The notes under the pieces: generated by a model
The model's input: only the letters and a program-made list of their open reading frames with translations
Told to the model about the DNA's origin: nothing
Database searches by the model: none
In this document: piece by piece, positions 494-52,724 of the stretch
Numbering within the stretch: position 1 is the stretch's first letter
How the letters are laid out: the number at the start of each line of letters is the position of its first letter
Position numbers and translations under genes: made by a program
Assembly: GCF_002224485.1 (NCBI RefSeq)
Contig: NZ_CP022463.1
Span: 278,376 to 342,375 of the forward strand
DNA from: Sinomonas sp. R1AF57
Lineage (GTDB): Bacteria; Actinomycetota; Actinomycetes; Actinomycetales; Micrococcaceae
Reading direction: 5' to 3'
Length of the DNA stretch: 64,000 nt

Positions 494-514
494 GTTGAGG
501 GGTCATTTCCCTAG
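494..514. repeat. single copy of the dispersed 21-nt GTTGAGGGGTCAT repeat
   Basis: The 21 bases match, with one mismatch, the repeat unit found in both orientations at 52639-52710. The copy lies between the convergent phosphatase and SSI-like genes, and its last four bases (CTAG) contain the stop codon of the SSI-like gene. Confidence 0.7.
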
Positions 515-4891: not shown

Positions 4892-5491
4892 TCAGCTGAT
4901 CGCGTTCCGGCGGCCCTCGAAGGCGCGGCCGAGTGTGATCTCGTCCGCGTACTCGAGGTCTCCGCCCACCGGCAGGCCTGACGCGAGCCGCGTGACGGTC
5001 ACCCCGATGGTCTTGAGCATGCGCGCGAGATACGTGCTCGTGGCCTCGCCCTCGAGGTTGGGGTTGGTCGCGAGGATGATCTCGGTGACCTGGTCGTCGT
5101 TGAGGCGCGTGAGCAGCTCCCGGATGCGCAGCTGGTCGGGGCCGATTCCCGCGATGGGGTTGATGGCTCCACCGAGCACGTGGTACCGGCCGCGGTACGC
5201 GCGCGTCCGTTCGATCGCGAGCACGTCCTTGGACTCCTCGACCACGCAGATCACGCTCGGATCGCGGCGGGTGTCGCGGCAGATCGCGCACGTGTCCTGC
5301 TCGGAGACGTTGCCGCAGATCTGGCAGAACTTGACCCGCTCCTTGACTCCGACGATCGCGGCGGCCAGCCGCTTCATGTCATCGGAGTCGGCCTCGAGGA
5401 TGTGGAAGGCGAGCCGCTGCGCCGACTTCGGGCCGATGCCCGGGAGCCGGCCGAGCTCATCGATCAGATCTTGGACTGCGCCTTCATACAC
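4892..5491 (-). CDS. recR: recombination mediator RecR
   Basis: RecR works with RecF and RecO to load RecA at single-strand gaps. The 199-residue protein is full length. It has the N-terminal helix-hairpin-helix ([15 protein letters not shown]), a Cys4 zinc finger (C56, C59, C68, C71) and a TOPRIM domain with VVEES, followed by [12 protein letters not shown]. It begins 9 bases after dnaX ends, so the two are very probably one transcript, the common bacterial dnaX-recR arrangement. Confidence 0.97.
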
Positions 5492-5500
5492 CCCACTACG

Positions 5501-8467
5501 CTACCGCGGCGGAAGGGGCGCACCGTCGAGGGAGCGTTCCTCGATGAGCTTCCCGCCCAGGATCCGCTCGACAGCGGCCCGGCCGAACAGCGACGAGCCC
5601 TCGATCGTCTCGTCGTCCGCGCTGGGGATCTCCTCGACATACTGGGGCGCCCCCTGGGCCGGCGGCTGCTGGGCGGACTGCTGCTGCACCGACTGCTGCG
5701 CGGCCGCGCTGCGGCTCAGCCGCTCGTACATGCTCAGCTTCCGGCCGCCGTCGCCCCGCCCGGACCCTGCGGGGGAGGCCGGTGCGGGGGAGGGGGCCGA
5801 TGGGGGGGATGACTGGGGCGGCTGGGCTGCTGCAGGGGCGTACGACGGCGCCGGGTCAGGCTCCGCGGTCGGCCTCGCCTCTGCCGGGGCCTGGGCGCCG
5901 CCGGATCGGAGGTTGGGCTCCGTGCCCACGGTCCACACGCCCGGCGAGGTCTCCTTGGCGTACGACCACGGATCACCGGCCGAGGTCTTGGTTGGCCCGG
6001 GCGTTGCAGTGCCCGCGGCTTCCGGGGCGCTCGGAGCGGCGCTGTGGTCCGGGGCGGTGCTGCGCGAGCGGCTCGGGGCGTAGCCCTCGTCCTCCGGGTA
6101 CGGGGCGTCCCAGTCGCTCGGAGGCTCCTCGTCCGAGTACGGGATGTCGTCGTAGGGGGTCGGCTCGGCGGCGGGGCGGCGGGCGGGTGCTGCTGCTGGC
6201 GCCGGCGCCGGCGTCGATGCCGGGGTGGGGGCGGCAGCCCGCGAGGGCTCCGGTGCCGGGGGTGCCGCCGGCCGACCCGCGTCGGCGCCAGCTGACGAGG
6301 GCGTGGACGGTGCCGACAGCGCGGGCGGTGCCGCCCCCGTGGATGGCTGGGAGGCCCCTGGGGAGGATTGGACGGCCGGTGCCGAGGCCCGGGACGGCTC
6401 CGCGACCCGGGCGGATCGCGTCGGTTCGGCTGTCGGGGTTGGAGAGGGGGCCGGCGCCAGACCCCAGGCGATGTCCGCGGCCGAGGGAGCTGCCACCGGT
6501 GCAGGAGCAGGAGCCGCCTCGGGCTGGGCAGCCCTGCCCGCGGTGGCGTGGGGCGCTGCAGCCTGAGCCCGCGGCGCCTGGGCGGAGGGTCCCTGAGCCG
6601 GCGTGGGTCTGCCGGGTTCGGGCACACTCGTGCCCGGGGGCGGGTCAGCCGGCGCTTTTGGGCGCTGGTCGCCCCCCGCCGTCGGCGCGGTTCCCGGCCC
6701 GTTGCCCCCGGTCACGGCGTCGATCTGGCAGTCGACCCCGATCACGTCCTGGATGGCCTTGCGCAGGTTCTCGGAGTGGTCGCCGCGTGTGAACGCCGAG
6801 GCCAGGCCCGAGGTCCCGAAGGCCAGGGCGAGTGTTCGGCCGTCGTACCCCGCGACGGATGCGTTCGGGCCGACGAGGGCCCACGTGCTGCGCTTGACCT
6901 TCGCGAGCGCGTCGAGGATCTCGGGCCAGGCGCGGCGCACCATCTCGACGCTCCCCGCGCCTCCACCCTGCGCCGAGGTCACCCCGTGTGGTGCCGAGGT
7001 CACCTCCTGTGGTGTCGAGGTCACCCTGTTTGGTCCCGAGGTCACCCTGTTTGGTCCCGAGGAAGACGGCGTCGGCTCGGTGGCACGCGGTTCGGCGGCA
7101 ACGGCTGTTGGTCGTTCGGCCACCGGCGCCGTCGCGCGCGGCTCCGCTTGCCGTCCGTTCCGTTCGGGTACGGCCGGCGCCTTCTGCCCATCGGCGCCCC
7201 GCAGTTCGGCGGCGGGCGCCGGGGCGGCAGGTGCCTCAGCAGCCGGCGCTGGGGCGGCAGGTGCCTGGGCGGCGTGAGCCGGCTCCGCGCCGTCGTGCGC
7301 GAAGGAGAGCCGACGCTCGAGGCGGTCGACGCGGGCAGCCCAGCCCCGCTCGTTCGCATCGGCGGCCGGGAGCATGAGGCGGGCACAGAGGAGCTCGAGG
7401 TGGAGGCGGGGCGACGTGGCCCCGGTCATCTCGTTGAACGCCTCGTTGGTGACGTCGGCGGCACGCGACAGCTCGGCAGCACCGAGGTTCTGCCCCTGCA
7501 CGCGCATCCGCGCCAGCTGGTCGGCGGGGACTCCGCGGAGGATGGACTCGGCGGCGTCGGGCAGCGCCTGGACGATGATGAGGTCGCGGAACCGCTCGAG
7601 CAGGTCCTCGACGAAGCGGCGCGGGTCGTGGCCCGTCTGGATCACACGGTCGACGGCGCGGAACACCGTGCCGGAATCGCCCGCAGCCATGGCATCCACG
7701 ACGTCGTCGAGCAGCGCCGCGTGGGTGTAGCCCAGGAGCGCCACGGCGAGCTCGTAGTCGATCCCGTCGGTCCCGGCGCCAGCCATGAGCTGGTCGAGCA
7801 CAGACAGGGAATCGCGCACCGACCCGCCGCCGGCTCGGATCACGAGGGACAGCACCCCGGGGGCCACCGTGACGTTCTCGGCGGCGCACAGCTGCTCGAG
7901 GTACGCCAGCAGCGGCTCCGGCGGCACGAGGCGGAAGGGATAGTGGTGCGTCCGGGACCGGATGGTGCCGATGACCTTGTCCGGCTCCGTGGTCGCGAAG
8001 ATGAACTTGATGTGCTCCGGCGGCTCCTCGACGATCTTCAGCAGCGCGTTGAAGCCCGCCGAGGTGACCATGTGGGCCTCGTCGATGATGAAGATCTTGT
8101 AGCGGTCCCGGACCGGGGCGAACGTGGCGCGCTCGCGGAGGTCGCGCGCGTCGTCGACGCCGCCGTGGCTCGCCGCGTCGATCTCGATCACATCGAGGGA
8201 CCCGGCGCCGCCGCGCGCGAGTTCGACGCAGCTCGGGCAGACGCCGCACGGGTCCGGTGTCGGGCCCTTCTCGCAGTTGAGGCAGCGCGCCAGGATGCGC
8301 GCCGAGGTGGTCTTGCCGCAGCCGCGCGGGCCGGAGAAGAGGTAGGCGTGGCTGATGCGGTCCTTGCGCAGCGCCGTCATGAGCGGCTCGGTGACGTGTT
8401 CCTGCCCGATCACGTCCTTGAACGTGTCCGGCCGATACCGGCGGTACAGGGCAGCTGGAGCAGTCAC
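5501..8467 (-). CDS. dnaX: DNA polymerase III gamma/tau subunit, with a long Pro/Ala-rich tail and an in-frame 21-nt repeat array
   Basis: Clamp-loader ATPase of the replisome. With a GTG start at 8465-8467 (VTAPAALYRRYRP) the protein has 988 residues. Visible parts are Walker A GPRGCGKT (46-53), the zinc cysteines (C64, C74, C77, C80), Walker B IIDEAH (127-132) and the SVRDSL sensor. From about residue 400 a low-complexity Pro/Ala/Glu region begins. It is interrupted by a folded segment (WPEILDALAKVKRSTWALVG) at about 500-580 and ends in a conserved C-terminus (MYERLSRSAA, GRAAVERILGGKLIEE). Residues about 469-499 are encoded by four and a third 21-nt repeats (6972-7062), giving VTS every seventh residue. 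The upstream SRP RNA occupies most of the space before the start codon. Confidence 0.95.
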   Translation of the reverse strand: MTAPAALYRRYRPDTFKDVIGQEHVTEPLMTALRKDRISHAYLFSGPRGCGKTTSARILARCLNCEKGPTPDPCGVCPSCVELARGGAGSLDVIEIDAASHGGVDDARDLRERATFAPVRDRYKIFIIDEAHMVTSAGFNALLKIVEEPPEHIKFIFATTEPDKVIGTIRSRTHHYPFRLVPPEPLLAYLEQLCAAENVTVAPGVLSLVIRAGGGSVRDSLSVLDQLMAGAGTDGIDYELAVALLGYTHAALLDDVVDAMAAGDSGTVFRAVDRVIQTGHDPRRFVEDLLERFRDLIIVQALPDAAESILRGVPADQLARMRVQGQNLGAAELSRAADVTNEAFNEMTGATSPRLHLELLCARLMLPAADANERGWAARVDRLERRLSFAHDGAEPAHAAQAPAAPAPAAEAPAAPAPAAELRGADGQKAPAVPERNGRQAEPRATAPVAERPTAVAAEPRATEPTPSSSGPNRVTSGPNRVTSTPQEVTSAPHGVTSAQGGGAGSVEMVRRAWPEILDALAKVKRSTWALVGPNASVAGYDGRTLALAFGTSGLASAFTRGDHSENLRKAIQDVIGVDCQIDAVTGGNGPGTAPTAGGDQRPKAPADPPPGTSVPEPGRPTPAQGPSAQAPRAQAAAPHATAGRAAQPEAAPAPAPVAAPSAADIAWGLAPAPSPTPTAEPTRSARVAEPSRASAPAVQSSPGASQPSTGAAPPALSAPSTPSSAGADAGRPAAPPAPEPSRAAAPTPASTPAPAPAAAPARRPAAEPTPYDDIPYSDEEPPSDWDAPYPEDEGYAPSRSRSTAPDHSAAPSAPEAAGTATPGPTKTSAGDPWSYAKETSPGVWTVGTEPNLRSGGAQAPAEARPTAEPDPAPSYAPAAAQPPQSSPPSAPSPAPASPAGSGRGDGGRKLSMYERLSRSAAAQQSVQQQSAQQPPAQGAPQYVEEIPSADDETIEGSSLFGRAAVERILGGKLIEERSLDGAPLPPR
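6972..7062. repeat. 21-nt tandem repeat array inside dnaX
   Basis: Four units (6972, 6993, 7014, 7035) and a partial fifth share the core CGAGGTCACC followed by a variable half. The period of 21 keeps the dnaX frame and encodes VTS every seven residues. The same core and period recur, in the opposite orientation, in the intergenic array at 14832-14936. Confidence 0.85.
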
Positions 8468-8528
8468 AGAGAGAACCCTACCAATCAGGACCGAGGCCCG
8501 GCCCGGGTTATCCACAGGTACGAAAAGG

Positions 8529-8612
8529 CCCCTCATGCACCCGCCAGAGCCCACCTACCCTTGCTACCTTCCGGTCCTGGGGGAGTTCAGCAGGATGACG
8601 CCACATGAGGGG
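8529..8612 (-). ncRNA. ffs: small bacterial signal recognition particle RNA (4.5S type)
   Basis: The minus strand reads CCCCTCATG at the 5' end, the conserved apical block CAGGACCGGAAGGTAGCAAG in the middle, and TGCATGAGGGG at the 3' end, so the ends pair to form the SRP stem. GGACCGGAAGGTAGCA is the Ffh-binding symmetric/asymmetric loop signature. The position directly before dnaX is typical of actinobacteria. The exact ends may extend a few bases further. Confidence 0.93.
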
Positions 8613-8659
8613 CTGCAGACCATCTTAGCGGAGTTGGGCCGATGCCTCGAATCGGCCGC

Positions 8660-9220
8660 TCAGCTGGTCGCGCTCGGGCTCGGGCTCGGGGTGGCAGACG
8701 GCGAGGGCGAGCCCTTCTGCTGGGCCTTCGCGGGCGCCTTCTGGATGGCCTCGGCCGCCTTCTTCACGGAGTCGCCGTAGGTCCCGTCGAGTGCGCGGTC
8801 CTTGACGGTCTGGGCGTCCTTCACGGCGTCTCCCGCGGGCGCGTCGGCGAGCGTCTTGAGATCCTGCTGCAGCTTCTCGGGCACATGCTTGAACACCGCT
8901 GGATGCCGGGTGAGCGCCCGGGCCGCGCGCTGGGCGTGCTGTCCGTACTGGTCGCTCCCGTCCTGCCGGATCACGACGGCGAGCACGCGCCTCAGCGCGA
9001 CCCGCGCCAGACGCTGGGCCCCCGGGCCCGGATGCCCGGAGGCCGACGGCGACGGTGACGGGGTGGACGCCGCAGCGGCGGGAGCCACCGACTGGGGCGC
9101 CGTGCTCGCGAAGGCCGCAGCTGTCCCGCCGCCGGCGAGCAGGGCTGCCGTGAGCGCAGCCGCGGCCCCTGCCTTCCAGGGTCGGCGGGAGCGTGTGGAG
9201 TGGTCTGTCGTCGGGAGCAT
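8660..9220 (-). CDS. secreted protein of unknown function
   Basis: This 186-residue protein starts at ATG 9218-9220 behind a good GGAAGG site. Residues about 10-40 form a basic-hydrophobic-Ala signal peptide (twin Arg in RSRRPWKAGAAAALTAALL, possibly Tat). A Ser/Pro/Ala linker, a helical central region (residues about 70-155, rich in Ala, Arg and Lys) and a Ser-Pro tail follow. I find no catalytic motif and do not recognise a family. It is divergent from the response regulator at 9370 and may be its target, which is only inference. Confidence 0.6.
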   Translation of the reverse strand: MLPTTDHSTRSRRPWKAGAAAALTAALLAGGGTAAAFASTAPQSVAPAAAASTPSPSPSASGHPGPGAQRLARVALRRVLAVVIRQDGSDQYGQHAQRAARALTRHPAVFKHVPEKLQQDLKTLADAPAGDAVKDAQTVKDRALDGTYGDSVKKAAEAIQKAPAKAQQKGSPSPSATPSPSPSATS

Positions 9221-9369
9221 GGTGGTGCCTTCCGTTCTGGGGGTAGCGGCTGATTCGCGCCTCATGCAGCCCATGGTTCCCCGCGCCGGCAAGCGCCGGG
9301 TTCGCTCCATGTTCGGGGACTGTAAAGTCTCGCGGCCGTCCGGGAAGGCAGGGGCGAGCGCGCGCCGTC

Positions 9370-10104
9370 GTGCGCTTGAATGAGTCTGTGGAGGAGCGCA
9401 GGCAGAGCGCAGGCGGTGAACGCGGGCTCGTGCTCGTGGTCGAGGACGAGGCCGCCATTGCCGACCTGGAGCGCCTGTACCTCACGCGGGCCGGGTACGG
9501 CGTGCACGTGGAGCGGGACGGAGCCGCCGCGCTCGCCCGCGTCCGGCAGCTGCGGCCCGTGGCCATCGTGCTCGACGTCGGGCTGCCCGGCCTGGACGGG
9601 GTGGAGGTCTGCCGCCGGCTGCGCGAGGAAGGCGACTGGACTCCCGTCATCTTCGTCACCGCGCGCGACGACGAGGTGGACCGCGTGCTCGGCCTGGAGC
9701 TCGGCGCCGACGACTACCTGACCAAGCCGTTCTCGCCGCGCGAGCTCGTGGCCCGGGTCAGGGGCATCCTGCGCCGGGCGGCGGGCCCGCAGGCGCCGCC
9801 CGTCCTGGCGGTCGGCCGCGTCCGGCTGGACCTCGGACGCCGCACCGCCGAGGCCGACGGGCGGCACGTGGCGCTCACGGCGATGGAGTTCGACCTCCTC
9901 GCGTACCTCATGTCCCAGCCCGGGCGGGTGTTCAGCCGCGAGCAGCTCCTCGCCGCCGTCTGGGGGCAGGCGGACTACGGCGGGGGCCGCACCGTGGACG
10001 TCCATGTGGCGCAGCTGCGGGCCAAGCTCGGCGAGGCGAGTCCCCTGCGCACATCGAGGGGAGTCGGCTACAGCGCGGCGGACGAACGGCCCCGGGCGCC
10101 ATGA
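9370..10104 (+). CDS. OmpR-family response regulator
   Basis: The 244-residue protein has a receiver domain (LVVEDE acidic pocket, phospho-acceptor Asp in IVLDVGLPG, conserved Thr/Lys in FVTARDD and LTKPFSPREL). It also has a C-terminal winged helix (ALTAMEFDLLAYLMSQPGRVFSREQLL, RTVDVHVAQLRAKLGE). The GTG start at 9370 lies inside a copy of the GCGCCGTCGTGCGC motif (9362-9375); GTG 9388 is an alternative. The gene overlaps the following kinase by 4 bp (ATGA), so translation is coupled. The signal is unknown. Confidence 0.92.
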   Translation: MRLNESVEERRQSAGGERGLVLVVEDEAAIADLERLYLTRAGYGVHVERDGAAALARVRQLRPVAIVLDVGLPGLDGVEVCRRLREEGDWTPVIFVTARDDEVDRVLGLELGADDYLTKPFSPRELVARVRGILRRAAGPQAPPVLAVGRVRLDLGRRTAEADGRHVALTAMEFDLLAYLMSQPGRVFSREQLLAAVWGQADYGGGRTVDVHVAQLRAKLGEASPLRTSRGVGYSAADERPRAP

Positions 10105-11444
10105 GGCGATGGCTGCGCTCGCTGCACGCGCGCGTCACCCTCGTCATGGCCGTGGTGGCCGCGATCGCCACGGTCGTGGCAGGCCTCGTCGGCGCCCAGC
10201 TCATCCGCTCGGCAGCCGTGGACCAGGCCCGCACCGACCTCGCCCGGGCGGCGACGGCGCTGAGCGCCTCGGGAAACGTGACGGACCTCGCCTCCCTCAG
10301 GGAGCAGGCGTTCGGGGAAGCCGGGCGGATCGCACTCGTCCAGCCGGACGGGACCGTCTCCGGTGCGGGGCGCCGGCTCGTGAGCCCGGAGGTGGTGAAG
10401 AAGGTCCTCGCCGGCCAGTCGGTGTCCCAGGCGGAAACCGTGCTCGGCGTGCCCGTGGTGGTCGAGGCGCGGCCGATTGCCGCCGGGGGCGGGCTCGTGC
10501 TCGCCGAGCCCGTCTCGGCCGTCACGCAGGCTGCCGGGCCGCTCGTGGCGCGGCTCCTATGGGCGCTGCTGATCGGGCTCGCTGCGGCGGTCCTGGGCGG
10601 GGCGCTCGTGGCACGATGGGTCGCCAGGCCGCTCGTGCGGATGGCGGGGGCGGCGCGGCGGCTCGCGGGCGGCGAGCGGGGAGTGGCGGTCGACGGCGGC
10701 GGCCCGGCGGAGATTGCGGAGGTCTCCAGGGCGCTCGCAGGCCTTGACGCCTCGCTCACGTCCAGCGAAGCCCGTCAGCGCGAGTTCCTCCTGTCCATCT
10801 CCCACGAGATGCGCACCCCGCTCACGGCGCTGCAGGGCTATGCGGAGGCGCTCGCGGACGGCATCATCCCGCCGGCCGAGGTGCCCGGCGTCGGACGGAC
10901 GCTCGCGGCCGAGACGGAGCGCCTGGACCACTTCGTCCGCGACCTCCTCGAGCTCGCCCGGCTCGAGGCCGACGACTTCCGGATCGACGCAGCGGAGGTC
11001 GACGCCGCCGAGGTCCTCCCAGCCGTCGTGGAGGCGTGGCGCGGCGTGTGGGAGCCGGCGGGAGTCGCGGTGCGGGCGGAGGTGTCCGGACCGCTGATCG
11101 TCTCCACCGACCCCCGGCGGCTGCGCCAGCTGCTCGACGGGCTCGTCGAGAACGCCCTCCGGGCCGCACCCCGGGGCGCGCCCGTGGTGCTCGCAGGGCG
11201 GGAGGAGGGCGGCGCCGTCGTGCTCGAGGTGCGCGACGGCGGCCCCGGGCTCAGCGACGAGGACCTTGCCCGCGCGTTCGACCGCGGCGTCCTCCGCGAC
11301 CGGTACGCGGGGGAGCGGAAGGTCGGCACCGGTCTCGGGCTCTCGATCGCCTCCCGGCTGGCGGCCCGGCTCGGCGGGCGGCTCAGCGCCGGGAGGGCGC
11401 CAGAGGGCGGGGCCGCGTTCTCGCTGAGGCTTCCGCGCGCGTGA
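10101..11444 (+). CDS. sensor histidine kinase, partner of the preceding regulator
   Basis: This 447-residue membrane kinase has TM1 at about residues 12-34, an extracytoplasmic loop of about 110 residues and TM2 at about 148-172. A HAMP linker follows, then a HisKA domain with the H-box SISHEMRTPLTAL, and an HATPase domain with N-box VENALRA, DGGPGL and GTGLGLSIAS. It is coupled to the response regulator by a 4-bp overlap. The short sensor domain has no motif I recognise. Confidence 0.92.
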   Translation: MRRWLRSLHARVTLVMAVVAAIATVVAGLVGAQLIRSAAVDQARTDLARAATALSASGNVTDLASLREQAFGEAGRIALVQPDGTVSGAGRRLVSPEVVKKVLAGQSVSQAETVLGVPVVVEARPIAAGGGLVLAEPVSAVTQAAGPLVARLLWALLIGLAAAVLGGALVARWVARPLVRMAGAARRLAGGERGVAVDGGGPAEIAEVSRALAGLDASLTSSEARQREFLLSISHEMRTPLTALQGYAEALADGIIPPAEVPGVGRTLAAETERLDHFVRDLLELARLEADDFRIDAAEVDAAEVLPAVVEAWRGVWEPAGVAVRAEVSGPLIVSTDPRRLRQLLDGLVENALRAAPRGAPVVLAGREEGGAVVLEVRDGGPGLSDEDLARAFDRGVLRDRYAGERKVGTGLGLSIASRLAARLGGRLSAGRAPEGGAAFSLRLPRA

Positions 11445-11514
11445 CGCCTCGGGCCCGATTCGGCACACGGCGCACAGTCGGGTATTCTGGAGCCTGCTCT
11501 TGATGAGCAAGCCT

Positions 11515-11600
11515 GGAGGATTCGCCTAGCGGCCTATGGCGCACGCCTGGAACGCGTGTTGGGTTAACAGCCCTCGGGGGTTCAAATCCCCCATCCTCCG
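11515..11600 (+). tRNA. tRNA-Ser, anticodon GGA
   Basis: An 86-nt class II tRNA. The acceptor arms GGAGGAT (11515-11521) and ATCCTCC (11593-11599) pair, with discriminator G at 11600. The anticodon arm is CACGC-CTGGAAC-GCGTG with GGA, followed by a long variable arm and GGTTCAAATCC for the T arm. CCA is not encoded. Confidence 0.96.
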
Positions 11601-11607
11601 CGCATGT

Positions 11608-11639
11608 GGAAGCCCCCGGTCCTCGGACCGGGGGCTTCC
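11608..11639 (+). terminator. terminator after tRNA-Ser
   Basis: A 15-bp perfect stem (GGAAGCCCCCGGTCC with its complement) is followed by TTTCTCC, eight bases beyond the tRNA. Confidence 0.88.
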
Positions 11640-11728
11640 TTTCTCCCTCCCACCGGCATGGTGCGAAATTCACAGGTTTGGCCGGGCGGCCATGGTCTTT
11701 CGGCCCCTGTTCAAGAAGCCCTCGGGTC

Positions 11729-11748
11729 ACGCACAATGAATCGTGCGT
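11729..11748. promoter_or_regulatory. inverted repeat upstream of the M23 peptidase gene
   Basis: ACGCAC-8-GTGCGT lies 71 bp before the peptidase start, in a region with no other gene. It is a possible operator; I cannot name the regulator. Confidence 0.3.
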
Positions 11749-11819
11749 CAGCCGGGGGCGCTTGTATACCGGTAGCGCCGTCGGGGCGGCGCGGCGACTG
11801 ATTGGGGAGTCCGAACACC

Positions 11820-12986
11820 ATGCTCCGAGCCTCTGCTCACCGTGCCACACGCCTCCGCGCCCGCTCCGCTGGCGTGCTCCTCGCGGCCCTCAGTTCGATA
11901 GCGCTTGCTGCGACGCCTGCCATGGCATCCGACGTCCTCCCCATCATGGCCGATCCGAACGCCTCGGTCAGCTTCTACCGCACCGACGTGCTCACGGTCG
12001 GCGCCGGCCAGAGCACCGGCACCAGCCCCAGCGGCCCCGTCAACGTCGCCTCCGTGGATCTCCACCGTCCCGAGGCGGGCAAGCTCTACGCGCCGCTCGA
12101 GACCCTGGTCCCGACCTCCGGGTTCGGGTACCGCACCAGTCCGCTCACGCGCACGGCCGGCGAGTTCCACTGGGGGCAGGACTTCGCAGCCGCCTGCGGC
12201 ACGCGCGTGTACGCGGCCGACGCCGGCGTGGTGCGGGCCGCTGGCTGGCACCCCTGGGGCGGTGGGAACCGGGTCGAGATCGACCACGGCAACGGGATCA
12301 TCACGACCTACAACCACATGCTCGGTGCAGCAGTGAAGACGGGTGAGACGGTGCAGGTCGGGCAGGTGATCGGCCTCGTCGGCTCGACGGGCTCGTCGAC
12401 GGGCTGCCACCTTCACTTCGAGACGATCCGCGACGGGCAGCACGTGGACCCGATGACGTTCACGTTCATCCCGATCGCGCAGATGGCTGCGCTCGGCTCC
12501 GTGGTCATCACGGACTACACTCCCAAGGACGGCCAGTCCACGAACGAGCGCCAGAACTGGGCGATCCCCGCGCAGGCCGCCGAGCCGACCCCCGGCGAAG
12601 TGGTGGTCCCGGCCCCGACCGCCCCGGCTCCACCGCCGCTCGTCGACCCGACCCCGACCGGCTCGCCTGCCGCGCCGCCGTCGTCCACGACCACCCCGGC
12701 GGCGCCCGCCCCGGCACCGGCCCCCGCCCCGGCGCCGGCTCCCGCGCCGGCACCGGCTCCCGCGCCGGCTCCGGCTCCCGCGCCGGCTCCGGCTCCGACC
12801 GAGACCACGGCACCGGCGCCGACGCCGACGCCCACACCAACACCGACACCGACTCCGACTGCGGTGGCGCCGAGTCCGACTCCCACGGCTACCGCCGCAC
12901 CGAGCACCACGACCACCACGACGACGACCACGACGGCCCCGCAGCCGACCGCCACGGCGACGCCCACTCCCACGCCGACCAAGTAG
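11820..12986 (+). CDS. secreted M23-family cell-wall endopeptidase with Pro-rich tail
   Basis: This 388-residue protein has a signal peptide (about 1-37, cleavage near AMA-S) and an M23 (LytM) domain at about 100-212. The zinc ligands are visible: H117xxxD121 (FHWGQDF) and H197-L-H199. The C-terminal 150 residues are low-complexity Ala-Pro repeats followed by Thr-Pro repeats, a likely wall-spanning linker. The ATG at 11820 follows GGGGAG; an in-frame TTG at 11802 lies within that site and is less likely. It probably cleaves peptidoglycan cross-links outside the membrane. Confidence 0.9.
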   Translation: MLRASAHRATRLRARSAGVLLAALSSIALAATPAMASDVLPIMADPNASVSFYRTDVLTVGAGQSTGTSPSGPVNVASVDLHRPEAGKLYAPLETLVPTSGFGYRTSPLTRTAGEFHWGQDFAAACGTRVYAADAGVVRAAGWHPWGGGNRVEIDHGNGIITTYNHMLGAAVKTGETVQVGQVIGLVGSTGSSTGCHLHFETIRDGQHVDPMTFTFIPIAQMAALGSVVITDYTPKDGQSTNERQNWAIPAQAAEPTPGEVVVPAPTAPAPPPLVDPTPTGSPAAPPSSTTTPAAPAPAPAPAPAPAPAPAPAPAPAPAPAPAPAPTETTAPAPTPTPTPTPTPTPTAVAPSPTPTATAAPSTTTTTTTTTTAPQPTATATPTPTPTK

Positions 12987-13039
12987 CCACCGGAGCGAAG
13001 GTCCGCCCGACCCGCGCACCCTCCCCTAGACTCGGTCGG

Positions 13040-13543
13040 GTGAGCCTTACTGACATTGCCCTGATCCTCAACGACGGAACCGAGACGACGTTCGGCAGCT
13101 TCGCCGGACGGGCTGTGCTCGTGGTGAACGTCGCCTCCAAGTGCGGCTTCACCAGGCAGTACGACGGTCTCGAAGCGCTCTACCGCCAGTACCGAGAGCG
13201 CGGGCTCGTGGTGCTCGGGGTGCCGTGCAACCAGTTCGCCGGGCAGGAGCCGGGCAGCGACGCCGAGATCGAGGAGTTCTGCCGCGTGAACTTCGGCGTG
13301 ACCTTCCCGCTCACAGCCAAGTCCGATGTCCTCGGCAAGCACCAGCATCCGCTCTACGCCGCCCTCACGGGCTTCCCGGCAGGGTATGACCTCGGCGAGA
13401 AGGTCAAGTGGAACTTCGAGAAGTTCCTCGTCGACCCCGAGGGCGAGGTCGTCGGCCGCTTCCGCTCCGCGGTCGAGCCGGACGCTCCCGAGCTCGTCGC
13501 TGCGATCGAGGATGCCCTCCCCGCGACGGTCTCGGCCGCCTGA
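13040..13543 (+). CDS. glutathione peroxidase-family (thiol) peroxidase
   Basis: Reduces hydroperoxides using thiols; bacterial members usually use thioredoxin. The 167-residue protein contains the peroxidatic Cys35 in NVASKCGFT, the VPCNQFAGQEP block with Q65, and the Trp in KWNFEKFLVD. These make up the family catalytic set. Cys, not selenocysteine, is used. The GTG start at 13040 gives the normal family length. No signal peptide is present, so it acts in the cytoplasm. Confidence 0.92.
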   Translation: MSLTDIALILNDGTETTFGSFAGRAVLVVNVASKCGFTRQYDGLEALYRQYRERGLVVLGVPCNQFAGQEPGSDAEIEEFCRVNFGVTFPLTAKSDVLGKHQHPLYAALTGFPAGYDLGEKVKWNFEKFLVDPEGEVVGRFRSAVEPDAPELVAAIEDALPATVSAA

Positions 13544-13560
13544 CGACAGGGGTTCACGCG

Positions 13561-13630
13561 CCGCCGCCCCCGGCCGCCCCCGGCCGGCCCTGGCCCGGCC
13601 CGGCCCTGGCCCGGCCTCTGGCCCGGCAGC
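13561..13630. repeat. GGCCCTGGCCCGG-rich low-complexity stretch
   Basis: Short imperfect repeats of CCCCGGCCG and GGCCCTGGCCC fill the gap between the convergent peroxidase and TetR genes. They can fold into several GC hairpins and may end both transcripts. Confidence 0.5.
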
Positions 13631-13649
13631 CGCAGCAGGCCTTGCGGCC

Positions 13650-14225
13650 TCACGGCGCCCAGGCGCGTGAGACGGCGTCGAGCCCGGCGTTGTAGGCGGC
13701 GTCCCAGTCGGCGTCGGGCGGCGCGATGCCTGCGAGTTCGAGGCTCACGAGGCCATGGACCTGGGCCCAGATCACTGCCGCCACGTCCTCGAGGGAGGCC
13801 TGCCTCATGCTCCCCTCCGCCTGTGCTGCCGCGATCGACCGGCGAAGCGGCTCCATGGAGCCGTCCGCGGTCTCCGGATCCGCCACGCATTCCGCATAGG
13901 AGGCCAGCGCTCCTCCGAACATGAGCCGGTAGAGCGCGGGATGCGCGAGCGCCCACTCGCGGTACGCGATCCCGAGAGCCGGGAGGCCGCCGTCGGCCGC
14001 CGCCCGCTGCGCATCGCCGAACGAGGCGAACCCGCTGTCGATGACGGCGGAGAGCAGCTCCGACTTGCCCCCGAAGAGCGAGTACACCGCCGTGGTCGAG
14101 GTTCCCGCGGCGGCCGCGACCTGCCTCAGCGTCACCCGCGCGGGGCCCTCCCGGTCCACAAGCTCGGCGGTGACGTCGAGAAGGCGGGAACGGAGCACGC
14201 TGTCGTGCAGGACGGGCCTTGCCAT
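13650..14225 (-). CDS. TetR-family repressor (WHG-type ligand domain)
   Basis: The 191-residue protein has an N-terminal TetR helix-turn-helix (VTLRQVAAAAGTSTTAVYSLFGGKSELL). Its C-terminal domain has YREWALAHPALYRLMFG and WAQVHGLVSLELAG, typical of the TetR_C_13/WHG subgroup. It is divergent from the DUF4188 gene with an operator-like palindrome between, so it probably represses that gene and itself. Confidence 0.9.
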   Translation of the reverse strand: MARPVLHDSVLRSRLLDVTAELVDREGPARVTLRQVAAAAGTSTTAVYSLFGGKSELLSAVIDSGFASFGDAQRAAADGGLPALGIAYREWALAHPALYRLMFGGALASYAECVADPETADGSMEPLRRSIAAAQAEGSMRQASLEDVAAVIWAQVHGLVSLELAGIAPPDADWDAAYNAGLDAVSRAWAP

Positions 14226-14241
14226 GCCCTCAGTGTATTCA

Positions 14242-14265
14242 TAACGTTGTTACGTAACGCAGTTA
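14242..14265. promoter_or_regulatory. palindromic operator between TetR and DUF4188 genes
   Basis: A 24-bp imperfect palindrome is centred on GTTACGTAAC, with outer TAAC and GTTA half-sites. It lies in the 87-bp divergent intergenic region and is a good candidate for the adjacent TetR protein. Confidence 0.65.
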
Positions 14266-14312
14266 CAAAACCGAGTTGCAGAACGTTCTGAGCAGACAGC
14301 GAGGGCAGGGCC

Positions 14313-14798
14313 ATGGCACAGGAGGTCTTCCCCGGCCGGTACACGGCCGCGACGGACGGAGACATCACGGTCTTCCTCATCGGGATGCGGGCCAACCGCT
14401 GGTGGAAGCTCGGGCCGGTGCTCCGCGTCGCGTCCGCAATGCCGCGGATGCTCGGGCACCTCGAGCGGGCCCCGGACGCCGGGATGCTCGCGTGGCACCA
14501 GTGGCTCGGCCGCACCACCCTGCTCGTGAGCTACTGGAAGAGCCCGGAGCACCTCCATCGCTTCGCAGCCGACCGCGACGCCCCGCACCTCAAGCCCTGG
14601 CGCGACTTCATGCGCACGGTGGCAGGCACGGGCGACATCGGCGTCTGGCACGAGACCTATCAGGTGCCCGCATCCGGAATCGAGGTCGTGTACAACGGCA
14701 TGCCGGCATTCGGCCTCGCCCGGGCCACGCGGCACGTGCCCGTCACCGCCGGTCTCAACACCGCGCGGCAGCGGCTGCGTGCGCAGAGGGCAGGCTGA
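14313..14798 (+). CDS. DUF4188 family protein
   Basis: This 161-residue protein matches the DUF4188 family as I remember it: PGRYTAATDGDITVFLIGMR at the start, NRWWKLGPV, and HETYQVPASGIEVVYNGMPAFGLA near the end. Members have a dimeric alpha/beta-barrel-like fold and no firmly established reaction; some are annotated as monooxygenase-like. It is divergent from a TetR gene and probably induced by that repressor's ligand. It is soluble. Confidence 0.8.
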   Translation: MAQEVFPGRYTAATDGDITVFLIGMRANRWWKLGPVLRVASAMPRMLGHLERAPDAGMLAWHQWLGRTTLLVSYWKSPEHLHRFAADRDAPHLKPWRDFMRTVAGTGDIGVWHETYQVPASGIEVVYNGMPAFGLARATRHVPVTAGLNTARQRLRAQRAG

Positions 14799-14831
14799 CG
14801 CACGACGGCGAGTGGCCGGCGTCGTGCTTCA

Positions 14832-14936
14832 GGGGTGACCTCGCGCTCACACGGGGTGACCTCGCGGTCAGAGGGGGTGACCTCGCGGTCAGACGGGGTG
14901 ACCTCGGGCTCAGACGGGGTGACCTCGGCGGTCAGT
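14832..14936. repeat. intergenic 21-nt tandem repeat array (GGGGTGACCTCG units)
   Basis: Five units of exactly 21 nt begin at 14832, 14853, 14874, 14895 and 14916. Each starts GGGGTGACCTCG and ends in a variable GGTCAG-like half. The array lies between convergent genes and its last five bases overlap the stop region of the HAD gene. Read on the minus strand it has the same core and period as the array in dnaX. Confidence 0.9.
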
Positions 14937-15822
14937 CGGCGAGGGCCAGCGAATCCCGCCACCGGGCGAGGAAGGCGAGGCCGGCGTCGTCGTGGATCAC
15001 GTCGTCGTCGAGGCCCAGGTACGCCGCGGTGAGGACCTCGTAGGGCTTGGCGGGGACGCCGTCGGAGGGGCGGACGTCCACGTGCGAGACGACGTGGTCG
15101 TTGTGGTGCAGCCAGTCCGCCATCGCGTAGTCGGTGCGGGAGTCGCCCACGGTGTACCAGGCGGCGGGGACGATGCTGTCGCGGCGCAGGAGTTCGCACG
15201 CGCGGGACGCCCCGAGGTCCTTGCCCAGACGCACGGACTCGATGTCGGTGGAGATGATGGTGGGGTCCACGCGGTAGTCCACTGTGTCGTCGCTGCCGGG
15301 CACGTGGTGGTCCAGACGCACGACCCCGAGGTCGTGCCTGCCCATCGCAGCCATCGCGTCGGCGTCGAACAGCTCCTGCTCGGCGCGGTAGTCCGCGTTC
15401 GAGACTTCCACATGCTGCTCGACGGAGACCATGGCCCGCTTCGTCTCGTCGAAGAACATGTGGGCGGAGTACTTCTCGGCGACGAGCGTCCGGATGTCGT
15501 CCGCGAAGGCGTCAGGCACCGCGAGGCTGTGGTCCACGTGCACCACGCCCGGTCCCTGGGCGGTGAACGAGAACCACGTCGCGCCCTTCTCGCAGATCGC
15601 GTGCACGGTGAAGCCCGAGGGCATCCCGGCCGCGAGCATGGGCTCCATGACCTGTTCGCGGATGAACGCGTCCGAGCGGCCGGTGTTGAAGATGATCGGG
15701 ATGCCTGCCGTGCCGAGCTCGCCGAGGAGCCTGATGATCTCCGGCTTCACGTCACGTGTCGCGGGGCTCGCGATGGGGCCGTCGACGTCGAGCAGGAGGG
15801 CGAAGGCGGGCGTGGTCTCCAT
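14932..15822 (-). CDS. HAD-superfamily hydrolase (Cof-like)
   Basis: This 296-residue protein starts at ATG 15820-15822 and has the HAD motif I LLLDVDGPIASP, with the nucleophile/acid Asp pair. Motif II is FNTGRSD, and the late Lys and Asp motifs are LGKDLGAS and TVGDSRTDYAM. The cap inserted between motifs II and III points to a Cof-like phosphatase acting on a sugar phosphate or similar small molecule; the substrate is unknown. The longer open frame upstream is not used because the region lacks a ribosome-binding site and family similarity. Confidence 0.8.
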   Translation of the reverse strand: METTPAFALLLDVDGPIASPATRDVKPEIIRLLGELGTAGIPIIFNTGRSDAFIREQVMEPMLAAGMPSGFTVHAICEKGATWFSFTAQGPGVVHVDHSLAVPDAFADDIRTLVAEKYSAHMFFDETKRAMVSVEQHVEVSNADYRAEQELFDADAMAAMGRHDLGVVRLDHHVPGSDDTVDYRVDPTIISTDIESVRLGKDLGASRACELLRRDSIVPAAWYTVGDSRTDYAMADWLHHNDHVVSHVDVRPSDGVPAKPYEVLTAAYLGLDDDVIHDDAGLAFLARWRDSLALAD

Positions 15823-15979
15823 GCCGCCATTCTTCCATTGGGGCCTTCGGCGCAAGAATCCGCCTGCCGAGATGACGGGCCCCCGCGAGGCCCACGGGGC
15901 GGGTAACCGTTTGGCCACAATGCCCCGGCCGCTCCCGGCCCGGCTCCCCCCGGAGGCGGTGCGAGCCTAGTCTTGAGGC

Positions 15980-17672: not shown

Positions 17673-17722
17673 GAACCGGTGCCGCCCCCGGGCTGCGCTA
17701 CAAGTCAATAGGCCGATGATCT

Positions 17723-17907
17723 GCGGCGGGAGAGTCCTGCCGGTGCAGCCAGCGGGTGCCGTAGGAGCAAATCCTCCCCAGGAATCTCTCAGGCCCACGT
17801 ACCGCCGCGGTGAGGCAACTCTGGAAAGCAGCCCGCGCAGAGCGGGCTCACCGACGGTGCAAAGCGGCGACAGCCGCGGAAACTCTCAGGTTCATGACAG
17901 AGCGGGG
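17723..17907 (+). promoter_or_regulatory. tandem glycine riboswitch
   Basis: Both aptamers are readable. The first runs from CGGGAGAGTCCTGC through GCCGTAGGAGCAAATCCTCC and AATCTCTCAGGC to GGCAACTCTGGAAAGC. The second contains CACCGACGGTGCAAAG, GAAACTCTCAGG and ATGACAGAGCGGGG. These are the hallmark conserved segments of the glycine riboswitch. Downstream, GCCGGG/CCCGGC (17923-17940) forms a hairpin. CCCAG (17929-17933) could instead pair with CTGGG (17946-17950), which overlaps the GGGAG ribosome-binding site. Control of translation is therefore plausible but inferred. Confidence 0.92.
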
Positions 17908-52638: not shown

Positions 52639-52710
52639 GTTGAGGGGTCATGTCCCTAGGTTGAGGAGCCAGGGATATGACCCCTCAAGCTAGGGACATG
52701 ACCCCTCAAC
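52639..52710. repeat. inverted 21-nt repeats forming a long hairpin between convergent genes
   Basis: A unit starting GTTGAGGGGTCATGTCCCTA (52639-52659) faces its inverted copy (52690-52710). A diverged inverted copy (52669-52689) sits between. The 28-bp arms pair with one mismatch. It lies between mctP (ends 52622) and the opposing gene (ends 52725) and can terminate both. A single copy is at 494-514. Confidence 0.88.
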
Positions 52711-52724
52711 CGTTGGAGGGAGTG

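Follow-up and report, generated by a model that had tools for sequence, protein, structure and literature searches.

A dispersed 21-bp tandem repeat of Sinomonas and its partner gene, encoding a predicted AbiEi-like winged helix with a Vsr-like nuclease domain

The analysed stretch of 64,000 nucleotides from Sinomonas sp. R1AF57 (hereafter the window; its genome is called G000) carries the same 21-bp tandem repeat inside dnaX and between two convergent open reading frames (ORFs), together with units of a second 21-bp family. The features are as follows.

495..510, minus strand: single unit of the second 21-bp family, one mismatch
5501..8554, minus strand, 5' end provisional: dnaX ORF carrying an array (Pfam DNA_pol3_delta2, gamma3, AAA)
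6970..7046, minus strand: array in dnaX, four cores, terminal half-unit at 6970-6983, in a variable linker
14313..14798, plus strand: ORF on the far side of the intergenic array, convergent to 14932..15918
14834..14931, plus strand: intergenic 21-bp array, five cores
14932..15918, minus strand, 5' end provisional: ORF with its stop codon next to the intergenic array
52640..52712: outward pair of the second 21-bp family (GGACATGACCCCTCAA), a minus unit at 52640-52655 and two plus units at 52673-52709

The shared repeat of the two places, pointed out in an earlier note, is borne out by exact GGTGACCTCG cores at 6974, 6995, 7016 and 7037 on the minus strand and at 14834, 14855, 14876, 14897 and 14918 on the plus strand, in 21-bp steps. 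TRF assigns a period of 21 to both arrays, with 4.3 copies at 6972-7062 and 5.1 copies at 14832-14939; the window yields 38 TRF rows, and short tandem repeats of other kinds are plentiful in it. The unit reads GGTGAC[C/T]TCG-NNNN-CACACGG, with 10 nearly fixed, four variable and seven mostly fixed bases. The five units described as exact at 14832-14936 have cores at regular steps, but the units are not identical and the last copy is the half-unit GGTGACCTCGGCGG. With up to one mismatch, the core occurs 35 times in the window versus 12.0 ± 3.7 times (maximum 28) in 100 shuffles.

In dnaX, GGTGACC runs in the sense of the gene and the array codes for VTS-xxxx repeats, and the terminal end of the intergenic array touches the stop codon of the opposite-strand ORF. 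The site of the intergenic array is empty in three named Sinomonas. For dnaX, no exact tandem pair was found in 79 dnaX-bearing loci (including those of S. cellulolyticus, S. atrocyanea, S. susongensis and S. albida), where just 11 degenerate pairs, isolated and chance-like, occur in nine loci; the relatives G003 and G014, however, carry the array at the same linker and in the same orientation with different units, so the dnaX array is not confined to G000.

Across the genome, exact GGGGTGACCTCG occurs 154 times and the core forms 121 exact tandem pairs, with 0 for the reversed-motif control in each case. The earlier note would have taken the similarity as coincidence given no further copies and unrelated codons in the dnaX of relatives, which is not what was found. 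Among 61 arrays of the 21-bp unit that were read, 19 overlap called genes, those for DnaX, an E2 acyltransferase and LigD among them; some of these arrays run with the sense of the gene and others against it. The arrays are dispersed, sites in relatives lack them, those in protein linkers are in frame, and close relatives differ in their units, all of which agrees with the suggestion that the repeat is mobile or recombining and can sit within coding sequence.

Most neighboring arrays face outward. Within 1.5 kb of each other, adjacent arrays in the four genomes of dialect A (defined below) comprise 49 divergent (outward), one convergent and six same-strand pairs, and 12 outward and 0 convergent pairs were seen by eye within 2 kb among the listed places of dialect B. 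Long-gap pairs enclose host DNA of up to about 1.15 kb, and orthologous array sites are retained between species that are ~25% divergent in the DNA between arrays. The pairing is incomplete in G000, where 27 of 69 arrays have no partner with the same core; at one of these (L100), a nearby degenerate opposite array stands on the wrong side. For 42 intergenic arrays, the terminal end lies ≤15 bp from a facing stop codon in 22 and the other end in three. At the E2 locus, read for mirrored arrays in 12 of the 15 Sinomonas genomes (all except G001, G006 and G007), 10 of 12 show them, some decayed, while G005 has another repeat on one side and G009 has none; another comparison of this locus read 8 of the 15.

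Several familiar explanations of such repeats were considered and rejected. RNA hairpin terminators fail as a general basis, since sense-strand folding of 55 arrays is on average no better than that of shuffles (mean z -0.46, four arrays below -3) and the Rfam search found no family at the arrays; the antisense strand gives a mean z of -1.74. A CRISPR array is disfavored by the lack of unique spacers, the variable part being 4 nt and often recurring within one array. Plasmid-borne spread is represented by seven weak matches (28-33% identity) in 72,556 plasmid records, and the host sequence enclosed by the long-gap pairs argues against a composite transposon or MITE there. The gaps of 8, 18-19 and 28-29 bp within pairs seemed quantised, as if by helical phasing, but a unit built of 10- and 11-bp halves explains these values. 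Replication-strand polarity (KOPS- or Chi-like) was judged by eye from the list of places and set aside, at least as a strong bias.

Comparison of 15 Sinomonas genomes revealed two core dialects, GGTGAC (A) and CCC[CG]AY (B). Tandem GGTGACCTCG, counted in four genomes, occurs 121 times in G000, 48 in G003, 45 in G014 and 29 in G008; the other genomes were assessed for dialect A by a 12-mer count, which is 21 in each of the gene-lacking G004 and G013. Tandem CCCSAYNTCGGC of dialect B occurs 92 times in G011, 76 in G010, 38 in G007 and 29 in G002, and 0-2 times in the other 11 genomes. Reversed-motif controls for the dialect counts are 0. The eight genomes high in either dialect are exactly the eight that carry one orthologous gene (473-710 bits); the other seven lack it, their best match being 162 bits at 40% identity. 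The association of gene presence with high array count (8/8 versus 0/7) has a Fisher p of 1.6e-4. Each of the eight orthologues has own-dialect arrays on both flanks, as judged by eye, one of them always upstream, and the units of these arrays vary between close relatives. The partnership of gene and arrays is well supported. The CCCGAY/CCCCAY split is unclean in G002, whose 29 tandem places are 14 CCCGA, 11 CCCCA and four mixed, although it shares its recognition residues with G011 and has CCCCA-type arrays beside the gene; this slightly lowers our confidence in the two proposals made below. In one linker, mean mismatches per unit are 0.50, 0.50 and 1.25 in the gene-lacking G012, G013 and G004, versus 0.29 in the gene-bearing G003, G014 and G008 (G000 left out), a single-linker comparison that hints weakly at decay of arrays in gene-lacking genomes.

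The partner gene of G000 lies outside the window.

G000:C1:1997304-1998266: partner gene, 321-aa product, bracketed by outward own-dialect arrays

The N-terminus of the protein matches Pfam AbiEi_4 (PF13338, E 7.3e-7, 29.6 bits, cut-off 25). The DUF559 profile reaches 12.9 bits, below the Pfam cut-off of 20.6, NCBIfam gave no match near cut-off, and a sequence search of solved structures found none below E 0.8. Its structure model (pLDDT 86) resembles AbiEi 6y8q (E 1.6e-6), the homing endonuclease I-Bth0305I 3r3p (E 4.7e-3, TM 0.80 to the target, 2.5 Å over 102 columns) and Vsr 1vsr (E 0.01). The predicted fold is thus an N-terminal AbiEi-like winged helix followed by a C-terminal Vsr/I-Bth0305I-like nuclease domain. 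All 27 aligned members have E213, D244 and K261, and E255 is nearly invariant. Residues 44 and 46 of the recognition helix differ between the dialects, and 4 of the 10 columns that separate three protein groups fall in this 9-residue helix; the match of residues to dialects is not independent of descent, because the protein groups coincide with clades.

The second 21-bp family, whose pair in the window sits between convergent gene ends (by eye), turned out to have a flanking paralogue of its own when one was searched for. Among other family members in Micrococcaceae (22 + 26 loci, all used), 32 of 48 have repeats common to both flanks, versus 0 of 30 control loci, which are E2-type genes including three second pieces of genes already counted. 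Over all family genes, shared flank repeats occur in 39 of 56, and 17 fall below the flank threshold. Four of six further weak paralogues in G000 have no shared flank repeat, and none of seven loci examined in G006 proved to hold the gene of its CTGGGGA family (eight matches).

We propose, with a probability of roughly 0.6, that the arrays and the AbiEi-like/Vsr-like gene make up a two-part system, with the arrays as its dispersed DNA component. One winged helix would occupy each 21-bp unit, so that protomers two helical turns apart would line up along the same side of the DNA, and the choice between GGTGAC and CCC[CG]AY would be set by the recognition helix. That the repeats may form a binding array, read at every second helical turn, as suggested earlier, agrees with a winged-helix protein whose recognition helix varies with the dialect. 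We infer that the nuclease domain may nick or cut at or near bound arrays, and that repair copying array sequence would let them spread, lengthen and stay alike within a genome; any benefit of this putative nuclease-driven spread to the host is likewise conjectural. Arrays would survive where harm is small, immediately after stop codons or within the flexible linkers of proteins like DnaX, which may tolerate them because 21 bp equal seven codons. The outward orientation has no account in this mechanism. The same gene with differently spelled arrays in related species suggests that a type of repeat-keeping system has gone unrecognised. On a broader scale, there is about an even chance that the AbiEi-like winged-helix/Vsr-like nuclease genes common in Micrococcaceae are a large unrecognised class of repeat keepers, each sustaining a dispersed population of outward arrays or doublets of its own through cutting and copying akin to homing. 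A few changes of the recognition helix would then respell every copy, and one DNA-binding specificity would shift along with hundreds of genomic sites.

The placement just behind stop codons and the retention of orthologous sites would also suit domesticated arrays, kept by selection and coated by the protein as a transcription roadblock or insulator at gene ends, with a nuclease-like domain that just dimerises or bends DNA. We consider this unlikely, as nearly a third of the arrays read (19/61) overlap genes in both orientations and the acidic and lysine residues of the nuclease domain are invariant. Still less probable is a protein confined, like AbiEi, to repression of its own promoter, while slippage and recombination multiplied the arrays with no help from the nuclease. 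AbiEi-type proteins bind 23-bp operator repeats (PMC7319586), the eight genomes each have an array upstream of the gene, and the units vary between close relatives in a VNTR-like manner; passive spread nevertheless leaves unexplained the dozens of dispersed sites, the exclusive dialects, the outward pairs and the absence from gene-lacking genomes.

Uptake sequences have species dialects and are located at gene ends and tolerant coding sites, much as the arrays are. Biased uptake of a species' own DNA, tagged by the arrays, would result in dialects and inverted pairs; such a drive appears very improbable, as the arrays accompany a single specific nuclease-like gene and stand on both its sides. 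Finally, the abundance of other short tandem repeats in the window might suggest that GC-rich repeats merely coincide, a reading left with next to no probability by the empty reversed-motif controls, the outward pairing and the co-occurrence with the gene.

If the two-part system is real, it would assign a function to the hypothetical AbiEi/DUF559-like proteins, which are a common group, and account for the seven-residue repeats in linkers of DnaX, E2 and similar proteins. The species would then provide a natural series of DNA-binding helices, each varying in step with hundreds of sites. Mycobacteriophage stoperators and Sal-box/TTF-I terminators are oriented sites at gene ends; unlike these, the Sinomonas sites are tandem, also intragenic and tied to a nuclease-like gene. 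The predicted catalytic domain shares the fold of the EDxHD/Vsr-like I-Bth0305I (3r3p) and fits the DUF559/Vsr type by fold and conserved acidic and basic residues, not by profile cut-off; in contrast to I-Bth0305I, the DNA-binding domain differs, the gene lies outside any intron or intein, and the sites are many repeats instead of one allele. The winged helix is that of the antitoxins of the AbiE type IV toxin-antitoxin systems (S. agalactiae AbiEi and Rv2827c), separate copies of which bind 23-bp repeat operators (PMC7319586), but in Sinomonas a nuclease-like domain replaces the antitoxin C-terminal domain and hundreds of units are dispersed.

A close parallel is the REPIN-RAYT system or REPtron, in which a single-copy gene stands beside its own repeats, doublets are inverted, several families each have a gene, and gene and repeats co-evolve and coexist over species splits (PMC3116915, PMC8266576, PMC8049555). 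In Sinomonas, dispersed repeats are likewise tied to one gene with the repeat beside it (8/8 genomes) and array doublets are inverted. The predicted enzyme, however, joins an AbiEi winged helix to a Vsr-like nuclease domain and is not a Y1 HUH tyrosine transposase; the repeats are 21-mers in direct tandem, lacking strong structure on the sense strand, instead of short extragenic palindromes in hairpin doublets; and the arrays often lie inside genes, with pairs that may span ~1.15 kb of host DNA. By this analogy, the Sinomonas system would work like REPIN-RAYT with an unrelated enzyme and, if so, may be its independent counterpart, a second route by which a repeat population persists in a compact bacterial genome.

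The earlier note had reported the same 21-nt-period repeat inside dnaX and as an intergenic array, and the two arrays are confirmed, apart from minor corrections. The exact core GGTGACCTCG occurs nine times in the window at 21-bp steps. The two arrays, together with two structured RNAs of the window that exceed the Rfam gathering score, are as follows:

dnaX, minus strand, array with four exact cores at 21-bp steps
14834-14927, plus strand, intergenic array with five exact cores at 21-bp steps
8521-8617, minus strand, small SRP RNA
17717-17814, plus strand, glycine riboswitch

The closest matches of the window dnaX are from Sinomonas (S. albida, 91% over residues 1-420), and on this basis its genome is treated as a member of that genus. 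The source genome (G000) is a single contig of 3,939,870 bp, in which the window spans C1:278376-342375. Further copies are found throughout: GGGGTGACCTCG is present 154 times (88 on the plus and 66 on the minus strand) with 121 core pairs exactly 21 bp apart, and the reversed motif gives 0 copies and 0 pairs.

The window and 45 further stretches, covering all but four of the 154 cores and all but one of the 121 pairs, were analyzed for array anatomy. These G000 stretches hold 61 arrays of at least two units, a number that varies with the degeneracy allowed per unit and leaves out three single cores. The unit reads GGTGAC[C/T]TCG-NNNN-CACACGG, and arrays terminate in the half-unit GGTGACCTCGGCGG. 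Forty-two arrays are intergenic, and 19 overlap genes called by a simple codon-usage caller, which is the sole basis of calls without a Pfam match. The terminal end lies within 15 bp of a facing stop codon in 22 of the 42 intergenic arrays, the other end in 3. Array-bearing genes with a Pfam match encode an E2 acyltransferase (E2), a phosphoribosyltransferase/StiP fusion, an AAA/chorismate-binding fusion, an HrpA-like helicase, LigD, TilS, a TetR regulator, MazG, MoeA, AidB, XdhC, a LUD protein, a DUF4194 protein, TsaE, an ACPS-type protein, and DnaX; in E2, LigD, TilS, and DnaX the array sits between annotated domains.

Neighboring arrays face outward. With a more lenient core (69 arrays in G000; 27, 27, and 32 in the relatives G003, G014, and G008), neighbors within 1.5 kb form 49 divergent pairs (minus then plus), 6 same-strand pairs, and 1 convergent pair, the last sitting between two divergent pairs of locus L085. 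Paired arrays overlap or are separated by 8 bp up to about 1.15 kb, and the DNA inside long-gap pairs is host DNA, either intergenic with hairpins or coding segments. In G000, 27 of the 69 arrays lack a same-core partner; at L100, a degenerate opposite array lies near an unpaired one, on the wrong side. By eye, inverted short repeats of GGGGA-, GGCACTT-, and GGAACTT-type, perhaps other families, are nested inside outer outward arrays at L161, L176, and L140.

No array is found at the 14834 site in S. cellulolyticus, S. atrocyanea, or S. albida, and none of 79 dnaX loci compared has an exact tandem pair, but G003 and G014 each carry an array of five units in that dnaX linker, oriented as in the window. 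The dnaX alleles thus compared have units that differ between G003 and G014, though their partner gene copies (see below) are 99% identical. At the 14834 site S. susongensis has an unrelated 18-bp tandem array (L003, about 4940-5005), directly behind the orthologue of the stop codon at window 14932. Core counts among 98 relatives are 79 in G003, 71 in G014, 70 in G008, 21 each in G004 and G013, 3-14 in nine other Sinomonas, and at most 12 outside the genus. E2 carries mirrored 21-bp arrays in two linkers round the E3-binding domain in 10 of 12 genomes parsed, with cores CCCCAT/CCCCAC in G011, CCCCAC in G002, and CCCGAC in G010. Tandem CCCSAYNTCGGC is counted 92 times in G011, 76 in G010, 38 in G007, and 29 in G002, 0-2 times in each of the other 11 Sinomonas genomes, and 0 times reversed; the tandem form of the GGTGAC dialect, counted in four genomes, occurs 121 times in G000, 48 in G003, 45 in G014, and 29 in G008. 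The GGTGAC and CCC dialects separate cleanly, but within the latter CCCGA and CCCCA do not: the 29 places in G002 comprise 14 CCCGA, 11 CCCCA, and 4 mixed. Among the CCC-dialect places listed, which leave out G007 and part of G011, arrays within 2 kb of each other form 12 divergent pairs and no convergent one, as read by eye.

One gene (G000:C1:1997304-1998266) is enclosed by outward arrays at L097 (G000), L131 (G003), and L164 (G008). When its protein was searched against all 15 Sinomonas genomes, an orthologue (67-100% identity, 473-710 bits) was found in exactly eight, namely G000, G003, G014, G008, G011, G010, G007, and G002, and not in the other seven, whose best matches reach at most 40% identity and 162 bits (gene-array co-occurrence, Fisher p 1.6e-4, which takes no account of descent). 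By eye, own-dialect outward arrays flank the gene on both sides in 8/8 genomes; the upstream gene end is common to seven loci, G011 being the exception. In Pfam, the protein exceeds the cut-off for AbiEi_4 and scores below that for DUF559. Its structure model (pLDDT 86, pTM 0.83) matches AbiEi 6y8q (E 1.6e-6) and Rv2827c 1zel (E 1.9e-4), and the C-terminal domain matches the nuclease I-Bth0305I 3r3p (E 4.7e-3, TM 0.80 to target) and Vsr 1vsr (E 0.01); E213, D244, and K261 are invariant in 27/27 aligned members.

The recognition helix of the model comprises residues 39-47. Residue 44 is S or A where the dialect is GGTGAC (four genomes), N in G010 and G007, and R in G011 and G002; residue 46 in these three groups is T, I/L, and V, respectively. 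Ten alignment columns separate these three protein groups, four in the helix (39, 40, 44, 46) and six elsewhere (hypergeometric p 6e-5, 315 columns), and the residue-dialect match is to be read with caution as the groups follow the tree. G002 groups with G011 by residues and gene-side arrays, yet is mixed genome-wide.

A second 21-bp family, GGACATGACCCCTCAA, forms an outward pair at 52640-52712 of the window, with 12 copies in the 358,078 bases examined and 0 reversed. Among six more G000 paralogues examined for its gene, L270 (C1:2725759-2726142) has this family on both flanks, outward, L267 is bordered left and right by a hairpin doublet, and four have no shared flank repeat. Comparing the left and right 450 bp of each gene, a common segment scoring at least 18 was found in 7/8 orthologues (8/8 at threshold 15), 16/22 Sinomonas paralogues, and 16/26 genes of other Micrococcaceae genera, against 0/30 control loci and 0/86 outer flanks (3/86 at threshold 15). 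Tandem 19-bp units adjoin 14 of the 22 Sinomonas paralogues, six on both sides, and hairpin-like doublets occur at the loci of other genera.

Other repeats were also seen. CGCCGTCGTGCG, often forming a hairpin with GCACGACGGCG behind genes (window and G000 L080-L124), is present 60 times, spread over 56 different 500-bp bins of the analyzed sequence, against about 1 expected. A further 21-bp family, CTGGGGANNNCGGNGCANAA, is found in S. susongensis (G006), with a divergent pair at L003:17541-17795 and copies on G006:C4, C23, and C33; its partner gene was not found at seven G006 loci examined. At L273 (G006:C1:278300-281600), a 19-bp direct repeat, GGTTCGATTCGCCACAACT, tRNA-like by eye, flanks a paralogue left and right.

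Binding of AbiEi to two 23-bp repeats is described in PMC7319586, as are four bound species of Rv2827c when four repeats of this kind are present. By analogy, each 21-bp unit may be bound by one winged helix. The predicted nuclease domain, intact in eight species, would introduce nicks or cuts at the arrays, and the arrays would be copied and homogenized during repair. Binding, cutting, and repair copying would together account for array dispersal and growth, for the single core of each genome, and for gene dependence, but not for the outward orientation, for which a dimer that requires a pair of arrays facing opposite ways is a guess.

The arrangement mirrors that of REPIN-RAYT as described in PMC3116915, PMC8266576, and PMC8049555. 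Unlike REPIN-RAYT, the gene-array system has neither a Y1 transposase nor a palindromic REP, and therefore is not a member. Among the open-access titles and abstract openings listed, none connects dispersed repeats with AbiEi, DUF559, or Vsr-like genes. Because neither its enzyme nor its repeat comes from a described repeat-keeping system, we rate the gene-array system as a new kind of such system, though it could count as a variant of the REPtron kind if the arrangement is weighed over the parts.
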